From Pollutibacter soli (GTDB lineage Bacteria > Bacteroidota > Bacteroidia > Chitinophagales > Chitinophagaceae): DNA of 64,000 bases. A program made the translations under genes and the position numbers. Below, one piece after another: positions 4,424 to 40,430 of the stretch; position 1 is the stretch's first letter, and each line of letters starts with the position of its first letter. The stretch is taken from positions 342,703 to 406,702 of the forward strand of contig JARJHS010000006.1 of assembly GCA_029269725.1 (NCBI GenBank), given 5' to 3'. Under the pieces are notes generated by a model that had not been told where the DNA came from, made no database searches, and saw nothing but the letters and a program-made list of their open reading frames with translations.

Positions 4424-4752
4424 TTTCGTTGGAACGCTACTTAAAATTTCTTTTAACTCTGTCTCACTTGTTGGTGTTCCCGTGAAAATCCTTCACTTCA
4501 AAAGTTTTTCGGTAACACCAACAAGTATTTTCTTAACTTAATCACACTTGTTGGTGTTCCCATCAAATTTCCCTCAACTCAAAAATATTTCCAAGGAACA
4601 CCAACAAGTATTGGAATCTCACGATAACAGTTTCTTACTTTCGTTGGCGCTACTTAAACCGAAAATCATACGCTTTTAAACTCTGTCACGCTTGTTGGTG
4701 TTCCCCGCAAAAAATCTTCAATTCGAAAATGTTTCCCAGGAACACCAACAAG
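4424..4752. repeat. cluster of three TTGGTGTTCC hairpins
   Basis: Three imperfect palindromes of about 61-64 bp lie at 4466-4526, 4546-4609 and 4691-4752. Each has left arm CTTGTTGGTGTTCC and right arm GGAACACCAACAAG, except that the first copy has a damaged right arm (GGTAACACC). Loops are AT-rich and differ between copies. The flanks repeat too: ACTTTCGTTGG followed by GCTACTTAAA occurs at about 4424 and again at about 4637. The arms match the array beside the transposase at 35.4 kb, but the stem ends in CTTG rather than ATTTG and the spacers are different. The cluster sits between the 3' ends of two convergent genes. Confidence 0.85.
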
Positions 4753-34610: not shown

Positions 34611-35245
34611 TCAGCTTTTAGTCATTTGTTTGCTGACAGCTTTGTGTTTAAAGATTCTGCTGGAAATAAGGTTCATCGGAAACCGGCAGCATAAAATGAT
34701 AAAAGCGGCCACCGGACTCAGAAATGAAATCAGTGTGGCAGACAGACCGTTAAAACATAGCTACGTTACAGGCCATCTTGTTTGCATAATTTGTTTTTGC
34801 ATCGAGCTCCTTTTTCAGAAACTCCGGTTTTGAAGTCACATAGTTCCATATCTGATTCTGAAACACGGTGATTAAAAACGTATTTGCAGAATAACAAAAC
34901 ATTGCAGGCACATCTCTGAAATAAGTACCGATCAGTGAAGTGGTGAATGGCAGCAATACAATAAAAAGAAGCCAGGTATTATTGTACCGGAACATTTTAT
35001 AGTCGACTCTCGAGATAAATTGAAAAAACTGGTGGTGTACTTTCCAGAAGGCAGCAATATTAAAAAACGAAAGAAAGAAGGCCAGGAATTTATGGTCTCC
35101 TATCTGCCAGATCGCTAAACCTCAGGATGCCATCTGCATTTTTATGGATTTTCAATTCCAGGGCCAGTAATGTAATTGCAATAGCAACTACGGTATCGGT
35201 AAAGAATACGAGGCGTTCAAGATCAAGATTTTTTTGTTCGGACAT
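34611..35245 (-). pseudogene. TMEM175-family potassium channel, frameshifted
   Basis: An ATG at 35245 begins MSEQKNLDLERLVFFTDTVV, then AIAITLLALELKI, the first TMEM175 helix with its F-S/T-D signature. The frame stops after FSDLADRRP. A second frame picks up GDHKFLAFFLSFFNIAAFWK, VHHQFFQFISRVDYK and LFIVLLPFTTSLIGTYF up to NKMACNVAMF. A third frame, one base off at a TTTT run, continues NGLSATLISFLSPVAAFIIL to a TGA at 34611. Summed, this is about 211 codons, the normal size of bacterial TMEM175 proteins, so the whole gene is present but broken twice. Confidence 0.75.
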
Positions 35246-35313
35246 CGCTCCTGTATGTTCAGGGAGTGGGCAAATCTAATGAACAGGCATAATGGCAGTA
35301 ATTCGTTTTTCGA

Positions 35314-35378
35314 ATATTTGTTGGTGTTCCTGCGATGAAGTTTTTCCATAAAGAATTACCTGGAACACCAACAAATAT
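35314..35378. repeat. system 1 hairpin at the transposase stop
   Basis: ATATTTGTTGGTGTTCC, a 31-base loop, GGAACACCAACAAATAT: a perfect 17-bp stem. Its last base is the first base of the TCA that is the transposase's TGA stop on the minus strand. It has the same arms as the seven-hairpin array on the other side of the gene. Confidence 0.9.
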
Positions 35379-35890
35379 CAGCAATGAGTCAGAAATCCCC
35401 AGTTATCAAAACCAGACTGATAAAATGCAGCGGAAGAATATTTATACTCTTCCGGTAAAATACACAACCCTGCTCTGACCGGATTCAAATGCACATAGTC
35501 AATTTTTTGTTTCATCATATTTTCATTGATCATTTCGATATACAAAGGATTACGTCGCCAAAACTGAAAGTTTCTGTCAGCCGCTTCTACCTTAAAATAA
35601 TCGAGAACCAGAGGGTGGTTAATTTCCAGGTCGGCTTTAATCCGCTGGGCGGTATACTTCATAAAATCCCGCTGTACGTCTGATTTCTTTCTTCCTGCTC
35701 TCATTTGCCAGATCAGATGGATATGATTGACCATAATTGCAAAAGCAAACAAATGGATTCTTCGATCTTCAACAAGGAACCGAAGACTTTCGGCAACTAT
35801 ATCTTTATACTTATCTGGTTTTAGCAGGTGCTGTTTTTTAAAATTCGAAGCAGTAAAGAATTGAGGGAATTCGGTAATAATTTCGACCAT
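35378..35890 (-). CDS. REP-associated tyrosine transposase (RAYT, Y1/HUH family)
   Basis: A 170-residue single-domain protein of the Y1 transposase superfamily (IS200/IS605-like, RAYT branch), which nicks single-stranded palindromic DNA through a tyrosine (family knowledge). The HUH motif is HIH (56-58) in MVNHIHLIW. The C-terminal part has FQFWRRNPLYIEM, then QKIDYVHLNPVRAGL, with Tyr132 a candidate nucleophile, and EEYKYSSAAFY. Length and motifs appear intact. There are no IS ends or accessory tnpB. Instead it is bracketed by hairpins: one touching its stop and an array of seven beginning 94 bases upstream of its start. This layout is the hallmark of RAYT/REP domestication. Confidence 0.88.
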   Translation of the reverse strand: MVEIITEFPQFFTASNFKKQHLLKPDKYKDIVAESLRFLVEDRRIHLFAFAIMVNHIHLIWQMRAGRKKSDVQRDFMKYTAQRIKADLEINHPLVLDYFKVEAADRNFQFWRRNPLYIEMINENMMKQKIDYVHLNPVRAGLCILPEEYKYSSAAFYQSGFDNWGFLTHC

Positions 35891-35983
35891 TCAGTAATCT
35901 ACGCCGCATAACAGGCCGGGACAAGGGAAGAACATCACTATATAATCAGATTTTTCTCTTCGATTTTCGTGGTGGGCTACAAC

Positions 35984-36701
35984 ATTTGCTGGTGTTCCCA
36001 ACCGAATGTCATCGCCAGTTGCAGCCGCCAAAGAACACCAACAAATATTAGCAAAGCCGACAGTCACGAAATCTATATTCGGAAGTTTTATCTCTTATTT
36101 GTTGGTGTTCCTAGCCGTACGTTATGTCCTGGTGGAGCCGCCAGGGAACACCAACAGCGAAATCATCAGTTGCTGATGCAGAGCTCTTATTTGTTGGTGT
36201 TCCTATCTGAACGTTATCGCCTGATTAAGTCGCCAGGGAACACCAACAAATATTGGCAAAGCCGACAGTCACGAAATCTATATTCGGAAGTGTTATCTCT
36301 TATTTGTTGGTGTTCCTATCCGAATGTTAGCGCCTGACTAAGTCGCCAGGAAACACCAACAACTTTTGGCAAAGCTGACAGTCACGAAATCATTAGTTGG
36401 TGATGCAGAGCTTTTATTTGTTGGTGTTCCTAGCCGAACGTTATCGCCTGACTAAGTCGCCAGGGAACACCAACAAATATTGGCAAAGCCGACAGCCACG
36501 AAATCATTTTGGAGATGCATATCTCTTATTTGCTGGTGTTCCAATCCGAACGCTATGGCCTGGTGGAGCCGCCACGAACACCAACAAATATTGGCAAAGC
36601 AGACAGTCACGAAATCATTTTGGAGATGCATACCTCTTATTTGTTGGTGTTCCTATCCGAACGTTATCGCCTGACTAAGTCGCCAGGGAACACCAACAAA
36701 T
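35984..36701. repeat. array of seven system 1 hairpins
   Basis: Hairpins at 35984-36046, 36097-36156, 36189-36251, 36302-36362, 36416-36478, 36528-36589 and 36639-36701. Arms are ATTTGTTGGTGTTCC and GGAACACCAACAAAT. The loops share CCGAACGTTATCGCCTGACT, then AAGTCGCCA, with a variant TGGTGGAGCCGCCA. The period is 111-114 bp, except 92 between the second and third. Spacers repeat ATTGGCAAAGCCGACAGTCA then CGAAATC, followed by one of three endings before CTCTTATTTG. Copies 1 and 6 have GCTGG in the left arm, copy 2 a changed right end, copy 4 a GAAACACC. The array fills the gap between the M28 peptidase stop and the transposase. Confidence 0.92.
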
Positions 36702-36722
36702 ATTTGCGTTTGTATCCACAAT

Positions 36723-38837
36723 TCATTTCAACGTCATCGCCCCCGCAGCCACATTCGCATCCAGCACCTTCACCACATCATCCAGTTTCACCACACCATA
36801 ATACCAGTTCCCGGCAGCAAGGCATTCCGCCTGCAAAGCTTTGTTGATATCATAATAACTGCGCTTGCCATCAACAAAATTCAAAAGTTCCGTGCGCATC
36901 GTGGGATGAAGAATCGTTCCTGCAGCACCGCGCACCCTTTTTTCAAAATAAGTATCAAGTACAGGATGGTTTACAGGAATCTTTTTTGACGCAGCAGTTT
37001 CTGCTTCGCTTAGTTTGATCGATGGTGCTTTTGTGACACCATTCATTCGTTTGTACAACTCCGCAATTTCATTCTGCATCGCGGTTTGTTTTAATTTCAT
37101 TTGCGCAACAGCATTGGCAATCGCCTTATTCGATTCAGCATCATTTCCGCTGATCTTACTAACCGACTGCAGCGCACGTATTTCCCTAAGTATTCCCTGT
37201 TCAACAATAATATTTGCATTCTTCCATCCTTCTTCTTTATCCGTTACCGTCTGTATTTCATTGAATGCCGCCTGCAAGTCATTCGCAAGTCTTTTGCTTC
37301 CCTGCGCATAGGTTTCAGACAGCAACAAACTGGTCTGATCTTTTTCAGCCTTACCAAAATAATAAGCCATCGACGCAATGATGAACGCATTTCTCTCCAG
37401 CTGCGTCTGATCAATCTGCCAGAGATCATCTTCAGAAGAATGTATCCAGTTGTCATCCCAATTGATCAACGCAACCGATGGTACACCAATCGCCCCTTCA
37501 ACAAAATTGAGGTTATCCGATGCATCAAAGAAGGGCACAAATCTCGCTCCGAATGATTCGCGCGTTCCTCGTGTTGAATAAATAGGCCGTGAATGCGGAC
37601 GCGGATATCCTCCCATCCTTCCGGCAGTAATAAACGAATTGTTGGTTTGTATTACGAATGTTCCTATGTTCTCAAACACCGCATCGAGATAACTGGTGAT
37701 AGAATGCGGAGCATAGATCAGGTTCTGTACGCGACTTCCCAGCGACTGCTTAGCACCAACCATATCCTGGTGGAGGTTCAGCAATAATTTTGATGGTTGA
37801 TCCGGAAAATCCCTGAAATAACGGTACTCAGAATAAATTTCATCTGTCCACCAGAAACGGATATCACGCAGTGGCCGCTGAATCTTCCCTTCTGCAATGA
37901 GTTTATTCAGCGTGCGCGCAATCTCCAGCAGATTTGCACAACCACTTCCGTCATCGTTCGCAGATCCCTGTTCCTCCTGCAAATGCGCTGTAATTACAAT
38001 TGCCTGGTCATGATATTTTGATCCTTTGATCCATCCCTCAACAAACCCCGTACGTCCGGGTGCCTTTCCAATTTCGGTGTCTACCTTCACGCGAACAGTA
38101 ACTTTTCCTCCCGGCACTTTCTTACCGGTTGCAAAAAAATCTTCGGTTGTTGAAGAAGTAACCATTTTTCTTAATATATCTCCCTTTCGTGGTGGGAGAT
38201 TAAATGCGAAAGTTCCCTGTTTGCCTTCCGGCGGTGTTACCGCAATTCGCGTCCAGGCGATCTGATCAGGAAAATCAAATTGACTTTTACTTTCGGAAGT
38301 TGTATAGGAAATTACCCCGACAGCACCTTTCGCCCATACGGCGTTCGCAACTGCGGCTTGCGGATTACCATTGATAAGAACAATTTTTCCTGCAACATCC
38401 ATTTTTTCCAGCTCCCCTTTTGTTCCGTTGCCGATGTAAACAAGTTCAGCAGAGAGGTCTGCATCATGACTTCCATCAGAAAGATATACCGCATGATCAC
38501 CTATATCAGCAAGTTTTAATTCCACCGGATCAGTAATCCAGAGTTCCGCAGATTTTGCAGTATAGTTAGGTCCTTCCAGTTTTTGCTCAATAAATCTTAC
38601 ATCTTCCAGGCCTGCTTTTTTCGCCTGCTCAACAACATAATTCGAAGCCTGGAAAAATCCATCCATGCCGGAGTCCCGATGCCATTGTGTAAGAATCCGG
38701 ATCGCTTCGAAAGCGCGATCGCCGGACAATTCATTGATCAGCATCCTGATTTCGGCATCAGATAAAAATGGTGTTTGCTGCGCAGAAGCAGAACTGTACA
38801 CCAATAACAAAAACAAAAGCCTGCGTAATTTTTTCAT
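36723..38837 (-). CDS. secreted M28-family zinc peptidase with PA domain
   Basis: A 704-residue exported peptidase. MKKLRRLLFLLLVYSSASAQ is a signal peptide. A protease-associated (PA) domain lies at about 130-200 (LVYIGNGTKGELEKMDVAGK, then IVLINGNPQAA, GAVGVISYTTSES). The M28 catalytic domain (about 245-500) contains VITAHLQEEQGSANDDGSGC, with His285 and Asp295/Asp296 as metal-ligand candidates, and TDEIYSEYRYF carrying the acidic residues. A C-terminal helical region of unknown role (about 500-704) follows. M28 enzymes are aminopeptidases or carboxypeptidases with two zinc ions. Its stop is 21 bases from the last array hairpin. Confidence 0.85.
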   Translation of the reverse strand: MKKLRRLLFLLLVYSSASAQQTPFLSDAEIRMLINELSGDRAFEAIRILTQWHRDSGMDGFFQASNYVVEQAKKAGLEDVRFIEQKLEGPNYTAKSAELWITDPVELKLADIGDHAVYLSDGSHDADLSAELVYIGNGTKGELEKMDVAGKIVLINGNPQAAVANAVWAKGAVGVISYTTSESKSQFDFPDQIAWTRIAVTPPEGKQGTFAFNLPPRKGDILRKMVTSSTTEDFFATGKKVPGGKVTVRVKVDTEIGKAPGRTGFVEGWIKGSKYHDQAIVITAHLQEEQGSANDDGSGCANLLEIARTLNKLIAEGKIQRPLRDIRFWWTDEIYSEYRYFRDFPDQPSKLLLNLHQDMVGAKQSLGSRVQNLIYAPHSITSYLDAVFENIGTFVIQTNNSFITAGRMGGYPRPHSRPIYSTRGTRESFGARFVPFFDASDNLNFVEGAIGVPSVALINWDDNWIHSSEDDLWQIDQTQLERNAFIIASMAYYFGKAEKDQTSLLLSETYAQGSKRLANDLQAAFNEIQTVTDKEEGWKNANIIVEQGILREIRALQSVSKISGNDAESNKAIANAVAQMKLKQTAMQNEIAELYKRMNGVTKAPSIKLSEAETAASKKIPVNHPVLDTYFEKRVRGAAGTILHPTMRTELLNFVDGKRSYYDINKALQAECLAAGNWYYGVVKLDDVVKVLDANVAAGAMTLK

Positions 38838-40206: not shown

Positions 40207-40368
40207 ATGAACATTATTTCGTTGTCGAAAATTCAAATGAATATACATGAAAGGCAATTCATTTGTGGGTGTTTCCCTGACGACCCGAATTCGACACAAC
40301 GTTAAAAATGGAACAACAATAGATAATAAACCCGCATTGCCCTGGATAATAAGCTCCCTGTTGCGAAT

Positions 40369-40430
40369 ATTTTGGGTGTTCCGAAGTACATTAAGTGCGG
40401 AATAACATTCCCACTGGAACACCAACAAAT
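40369..40430. repeat. isolated system 1 hairpin
   Basis: A damaged left arm ATTTTGGGTGTTCC pairs with GGAACACCAACAAAT. It lies between the VanZ-like gene's stop and the TolB-like gene's start, 4 kb from the array. It has no neighbours and its own loop sequence. Confidence 0.75.

Follow-up and report, generated by a model that had tools for sequence, protein, structure and literature searches.

A gene for a RAYT-type Y1/HUH protein that lies amid a row of long-loop hairpins raises the question whether protein and hairpins form one system, of the kind described for proteobacterial RAYTs and their REP hairpins. Such a gene is found in the window analysed here, a stretch of 64,000 nucleotides from Pollutibacter soli. 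In PMC8266576, TnpA_REP from E. coli and from two further Proteobacteria is reported to bind single-stranded REP hairpins in a strand-specific manner and to cleave beside them.

The RAYT gene and its hairpin array

Read along the minus strand, the M28 peptidase gene comes first, followed by seven tandem hairpins, the Y1/HUH gene and one further hairpin (Table 1). This is the layout given in the preliminary description, and all its elements were confirmed: a minus-strand open reading frame of 170 residues with one hairpin next to the stop codon and seven on its 5' side, and the M28 peptidase gene at the far end of the array. The first of the seven hairpins is located 94 nt ahead of the RAYT start codon.

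Table 1. Features of the RAYT locus and other hairpins of the same family (positions in the window)
Feature	Position	Strand	Remarks
Three more same-family hairpins	4467..4752		4467-4525, 4547-4608, 4691-4752; loops unrelated
Hairpin beyond RAYT stop codon	35317..35375		2 nt beyond stop codon; 31-nt loop; exact arms
RAYT-type Y1/HUH protein, 170 aa	35378..35890	-	ORF; HUH = NHIH, His56/His58; Tyr132 in YVHLNP
Tandem array of seven long-loop hairpins	35985..36700		M28 gene 3' end to RAYT start
Array hairpin 1	35985..36045		1 mismatch per arm
Array hairpin 2	36098..36158		0 + 2 mismatches in arms
Array hairpin 3	36190..36250		arms exact; GGC 36255-36257
Array hairpin 4	36303..36363		0 + 2 mismatches in arms; GGC 36368-36370
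Array hairpin 5	36417..36477		arms exact; GGC 36482-36484
Array hairpin 6	36529..36588		1 mismatch per arm; GGC 36593-36595
Array hairpin 7	36640..36700		arms exact; 22 nt to M28 stop codon
M28 peptidase gene	36723..38837	-	Pfam 47 bits
Two more same-family hairpins	40262..40429		40369-40429 and, more degenerate, 40262-40323; loops unrelated

Other points of the preliminary description hold in part. The arms said to be shared by all eight hairpins are exact over both 14-nt arms in four of them, and the other four carry 2 mismatches each over the two arms. The proposed period of 111-114 bp fits five of the six start-to-start spacings (113, 92, 113, 114, 112, 111), the exception being 92; the second spacer of the array is shortened to 31 nt. 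The spacer endings had been described as three alternating types. By eye they run A, B, A, B, C, C, and strict alternation is therefore limited to the first four. Together with a 173-nt repeat (84%) that a repeat search found within the array, this order fits a two-unit block duplication plus a separate C-C pair, and it is plausible from the sequence that the array has grown by block duplication of its units. GGC follows four of the seven array units, and there is none at the hairpin beside the RAYT stop codon.

The eight hairpins are not a product of chance: arm matches with up to 3 mismatches number 53 in the window against a mean of 21.9 in shuffled sequences, where none of 100 shuffles reached 53, and hairpins whose 10-nt arms are perfect occur 15 times in the whole genome, compared to 0 for the reversed pattern.

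The protein scores 76 bits (E 2.7e-21) against the NCBIfam family NF047646 (REP_Tyr_transpos), under the curated cut-off of 80, which we treat as borderline and not as an exclusion from the RAYTs. Y1_Tnp is its sole Pfam domain, with 20.9 bits just under the cut-off of 23. In an alignment of 25 of the 31 listed RAYT loci, all 25 sequences match REP_Tyr_transpos at E<=1e-3, and His56, His58 and Tyr132 are invariant, i.e., the HUH motif and the single catalytic tyrosine are present. The AlphaFold2 model of the window protein (mean pLDDT 95.2, pTM 0.90) finds its top match in the PDB in 4er8, the structure of a RAYT in complex with a REP hairpin (E 1.4e-9, TM 0.68/0.70), with IS200/IS605-type transposases ranking next; the sequence profile of the protein also retrieves 4er8 (E 6.5e-7). 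Relatives are numerous in the protein database (1156 at E<=1e-3, the nearest 88% identical). The genome itself contains a single copy of the gene, and its next match is 31% identical. An IS200/IS605 insertion sequence, for which multiple near-identical gene copies would be expected, was rejected on this ground. Profile match, invariant residues, modelled fold and single copy together support an intact, single-copy RAYT.

The hairpin family in the genome

A genome-wide count of the arms, suggested in the preliminary description, showed that they recur, as the 13-nt arm at <=1 mismatch gives 118 matches versus 7 for the reversed pattern. At least 56 hairpins of the family were found at 22 loci (20 stretches around listed arm matches and the window), a lower bound since the stretches were taken from the arm matches listed first. 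Between loci the arms are 93% identical, a value that is biased upward because the search selects for arms. The loop interiors are 53% identical (0.529) between loci, compared to 52% (0.520) after shuffling, with 53.1% as the highest of 30 shuffles; the 12-nt flanks of the hairpins are 56% identical, a figure without shuffle control.

The length of the loop is confined to narrow ranges. When the genome was scanned with a perfect 7-nt core, gaps of 1-30 nt gave 2 matches (control 1), gaps of 31-61 nt 39 (control 0) and gaps of 62-92 nt 4 (control 0), two of the latter spanning a neighbouring hairpin. The 39 gaps fall in 39-42 and 45-50, and 43-44 is empty. Measured between 11-nt arms in one hairpin per locus, the distance is 35-38 nt at 12 of the 22 loci and 41-46 nt at the remaining 10, with none at 39-40; between 14-nt arms the loops measure 31-34 or 37-42 nt, and their sequences are unrelated between loci. 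In many hairpins of the longer class one arm carries, by eye, an unpaired A and then another short stem, which would leave a free loop of about the size found in the shorter class. From the narrow loop length and the free loop sequence we infer that what counts is the stem and the spacing, and not the letters of the loop. The short-loop form of the hairpin shows no excess in this genome (1 versus 1 in the control).

GGC is mostly gone from the hairpins of this genome, where it lies within 10 nt on the 3' side in 9 of the 56 listed hairpins, and GCC within 10 nt on the 5' side in 3 of the 56 (swapped controls 1 and 0).

The window array has counterparts elsewhere in the genome, with 5 copies spaced at 103-105, 6 at 125-139, 8 at 80-100, 3 at 194 and 3 at 80/144. 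Within seven arrays the loops are related copies of one another (mean identity 0.63-0.96) and not unique spacers, and a CRISPR-like reading was rejected for this reason. An integron attC reading was dropped as well, as the arms do not match the core-site consensus. Two of the arrays have an internal order of their own. Six hairpins on contig C35 (L063:3554-4369) alternate in spacing between 172 and 117-118 and also alternate between two loop types, a clear two-unit block repeat. In an array of eight hairpins on contig C4 (L053:7395-8093) opposite orientations, judged by the bulged A, are interspersed in a BIME-like manner.

Flanking hairpins of related RAYT genes

The RAYT loci used for comparison were the best-scoring ones, up to 30, of a same-family search, in which 90 of 147 genomes matched at E<=1e-5, and the best 80 of 421 stretches from GTDB; the set comprises the nearest relatives, found with patterns derived from such relatives, and favours near ones. 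Wherever the tree gives a phylum, the named relatives (the best 80 of the 421 loci in GTDB genomes) are all Bacteroidota. The scan covered 108 loci, with L017, L082 and L088 outside it. Ten loci lacking a motif-bearing open reading frame (L080, L108, L111, L116, L155, L160, L164, L170, L172 and L174) were set aside, and removal of near-copies and of proteins below 135 aa reduced the other 98 to 93.

Strong hairpins, defined by a stem of at least 8 nt, are found upstream of the gene at 68 of the 93 dereplicated loci, downstream at 66 and on both sides at 54, compared to means of 5.3% upstream, 3.7% downstream and 0.27% on both sides in a shifted-position control (20 draws). The 8-nt stem core is identical upstream and downstream at 41 of the 54 loci and has at most one mismatch across the gene at 42 of the 54; among pairs taken from different genes, 34% are this similar. 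GGC, for which two stem bases and six flank bases were examined, lies on the flank that faces away from the gene in 44/66 downstream and 34/68 upstream hairpins, and on the flank that faces the gene in 1/66 and 7/68, respectively. The short loops, read in the sense of the gene, are more than half purine downstream (51/54) and less than half purine upstream (50/60). The flanking hairpins face outward from the RAYT gene. This orientation and the placement of GGC on the outer flank make GGC a candidate for the role of tag played by GT[AG]G in other groups.

The stems vary by lineage (GTTGGTG, GTTGGTC, GTTGGAG, GGTTCGTG and others). Protein distance and stem distance show a weak correlation (Mantel r 0.17 over 80 loci, reached in 6 of 2000 permutations), which speaks for the explanation favoured below; the low r, uncorrected for relatedness, weakens this point. 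At 13 of the 93 loci there is no hairpin above the threshold on either side. By eye, at least two of these (L163 and L171) have a 7-nt stem, which is below the threshold of 8, and some (e.g., L068 and L123) have imperfect versions with a longer loop. Upstream of a distant RAYT in another genus (L089 in G058) short tetraloop hairpins are repeated in tandem about every 57 bp, and arrays beside RAYTs thus recur outside the genus of the window.

At 70 of the 93 loci at least one of the strongest flanking hairpins has a loop of 3-6 nt. Ten of the 93, the window included, have long-loop hairpins only (12-37 nt). On a quick tree the long-loop label changes 8 times, or 6 times when the hairpin-less loci are left out, which indicates that long loops were gained or lost repeatedly and are no single clean innovation; the idea of one long-loop clade finds no support in this tree. 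In five long-loop relatives (L070, L072, L073, L074 and L100) GGC still stands after a downstream hairpin, as judged by eye. When the 147 genomes were scanned for the long hairpin, the genome of the window gave the strongest signal (39 versus 0 in the control), the next highest count being 10. In one other genome (G074, contigs C30, C65, C175 and C222) long-loop hairpins were observed whose loops are alike between loci, unlike those of the window's genome, which may reflect a more recent spread there.

The 90 genomes that have a RAYT match contain 302 short-loop hairpins of the GTTGGTG type (control 19), and the 57 that lack one contain 33 (control 3). An excess of at least three hairpins over the control is found in 26 of the 90 genomes with a match and in 4 of the 57 without (p = 0.0014), an excess of at least two in 28 of 90 and 8 of 57, respectively (p = 0.020). 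Since one stem type was scanned, other stems are missed in these counts. For this form, the hairpins of the relatives are therefore not equally common in genomes lacking a RAYT, the outcome that the preliminary description had named as speaking against a RAYT/REP system. Against a tight link stand three genomes with 16 (G005), 34 (G082) and 19 (G089) hairpins despite distant RAYT matches only (best E-values 3.9e-15, 1.1e-20 and 2.9e-16, respectively). Long hairpins are absent (0, controls 1 each) from two congeners that lack a RAYT match, a weak comparison as their genomes are far smaller (2.3 and 2.9 Mb versus 6.1). A cluster of five close-set GTTGGTG-type short hairpins lies in a genome without a RAYT match at E<=1e-5 (G061, contig C10:68341-69659), possibly a relic of RAYT loss.

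A probable REPtron-like unit among known systems and alternatives

What is observed, then, is a gene with its catalytic residues and a predicted RAYT fold, the hairpins beside it, their copies across the genome and an outward hairpin-gene-hairpin layout in many Bacteroidota relatives. With a probability of roughly 0.8 we consider the window to hold a REPtron-like unit, whose RAYT-type protein likely binds its hairpins in single-stranded form; a predicted nick next to them would lead to their spread and local amplification. The Bacteroidota RAYT/REP system proposed in the preliminary description thus finds support in the fold of the protein, in the position and the matching stems of the flanking hairpins and in the co-occurrence data, but the unusualness of the array and the novelty of the system were overstated.

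Judged by its homology, the window protein likely handles its hairpin as the proteobacterial TnpA_REP does. The stem would give the substrate specificity, and the outer GGC tag or a bulge would determine the choice of strand; according to PMC8266576, the contributions of bulge, loop and GTAG vary from one RAYT group to another. Cleavage and religation during replication would then spread the hairpin, and arrays may grow via slippage or repeated insertion. In this genome a locus-specific loop of 31-34 or 37-42 nt would take the place of the 3-6 nt loop usual in relatives. A more far-reaching version, in which this RAYT lineage reads only the stem and the loop length, the loop of 31-42 nt is free cargo at each locus and ordered arrays grow, is one that we put forward tentatively and hold to be rather doubtful. 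If it were true, the enzyme would propagate or maintain the arms, resulting in families that share arms and not interiors.

Like the REPtron of RAYT/TnpA_REP (E. coli TnpA_REP, 4er8), the unit has a Y1/HUH fold, one close gene copy, hairpins on both sides of the gene, dispersed copies and clusters. Unlike in the REPtron, no GT[AG]G is found in the 8 nt on the 5' side of the window hairpins, whichever strand is read, and many relatives carry GGC at the outer foot. The loops of the window, with 31 nt or more, also differ from the REP search rules given in PMC6006769, which ask for a loop of 2-5 nt or, above a bulge of 1-3 nt, an additional stem. The array resembles BIME-2 and the tandem BIMEs of enterobacteria in its consecutive palindromic units, but its units have long loops and stand seven in a row close to the RAYT start codon. 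It had been presented as far larger than the usual REP doublet, but as a kind it is not exceptional, since tandem BIMEs have already been described (PMC8266576, PMC2817692) and further arrays, of 3 to 8 hairpins, exist elsewhere in this genome.

The TnpAY1 subclass 2.6, mostly from Bacteroidetes and equated in PMC6006769 with RAYT group 5 of Bertels, is described there as lacking GT[AG]G and having atypical flanking secondary structures with copies elsewhere in the genome (Quentin 2018). Judged by its sequence, the window protein appears to share most features of this subclass: NHIH, IWQ and YSSA fit the motifs NH[LIV]H, WQ and SS, GT[AG]G is absent, the length is in the range of about 170-180 aa, and the flanking structures are atypical, with copies elsewhere, in a group mostly from Bacteroidetes. 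It has YVHLNP and not YIH[QN]NP, the exact form of which occurs in 6 of the 25 aligned rows with the position before NP varying freely, and the comparison with the structures of subclass 2.6 is by description only. The cognate hairpin had been called undescribed. For the hairpin itself this agrees with a literature search, covering few subscription journals, that returned no description of the hairpin family, the GGC tag or the length-limited long loops, but RAYTs of subclass 2.6 with atypical flanking structures are in print. The TIRYTs and TIRtrons (Di Nocera 2013, PMC3733652) likewise have a Y1 gene bounded by inverted sequences, some of them partly self-complementary. In difference to TIRYT/subclass 2.1, the window protein has no long C-terminal HTH domain (170 aa, Y1_Tnp only) and hairpins are present, so that this class does not fit the unit well.

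The hairpins could instead be elements of the host that act as RNA at 3' ends, as mRNA stabilisers or attenuators, with the RAYT gene merely adjoining some of them. By crude ORF calls (six-frame, >=120 aa), all 22 hairpin loci lie downstream of at least one gene and none between divergent genes, although the loci are partly non-independent and three of them also overlap an ORF of 123-153 aa; moreover, 22 nt separate the window array from the stop codon of the M28 gene, whose mRNA end it could shape according to the preliminary description. Known REPs, however, also sit downstream of coding regions, as noted in PMC3733652, and therefore this placement cannot separate the two readings. We consider host RNA elements quite improbable in view of the relatives, where RAYT genes are flanked on both sides at 54 of 93 loci by outward-pointing hairpins with matching stems (41 of 54). 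Intrinsic terminators predicted in 35000-37000 number 2 versus 2.2 expected, both within the RAYT gene and none at the array; as the scan was limited to loops of 3-8 nt, it says little about long-loop hairpins. Among known RNA families there was no match near the gathering score (best E 0.027, 24.3 bits versus 70).

Two further alternatives take the long loops as their starting point. Inverted arms of 14 nt around a variable centre of 31-42 nt, in dispersed copies, would also suit tiny MITEs, whose terminal inverted repeats are moved by an ordinary DDE transposase and not by the RAYT. This is highly improbable, because the related stems of relatives hold loops of 3-6 nt beside RAYT genes, too short for the centre of a transposon, and because the loops are as unrelated between loci as shuffled sequence (0.529 versus 0.520), unlike copies of one MITE. 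The hairpins might also be decayed or fused inverted pairs of REPs that have lost their middle and are relics, no longer substrates of the RAYT. For double-foot REPs the central deletion of an inverted dimer is suggested in PMC6006769, and the absence of the GGC tag from most copies here is in line with this. It is nevertheless unlikely, as unrelated loci fall into the two narrow length classes of 35-38 or 41-46 nt, with 39-40 empty over 22 loci, long loops of 12-37 nt are the only type at 9 further RAYT loci, and the arms are 93% identical between loci, even if the search selects for arms.

RAYT-REP biochemistry, as covered in PMC8266576, concerns proteobacterial hairpins tagged with GTAG, and the loci compared here offer candidate enzyme-hairpin pairs, with GGC as the tag, in many Bacteroidota. 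Owing to the natural variety of stems and loops, swaps of natural pairs can test directly which feature is recognised by a RAYT, be it stem, loop, bulge or tag. Such candidate pairs occur throughout the Bacteroidota, whereas the loops in the genome of P. soli are unusually long; this genome poses the question how arms and loop length persist while the sequence of the loop does not.
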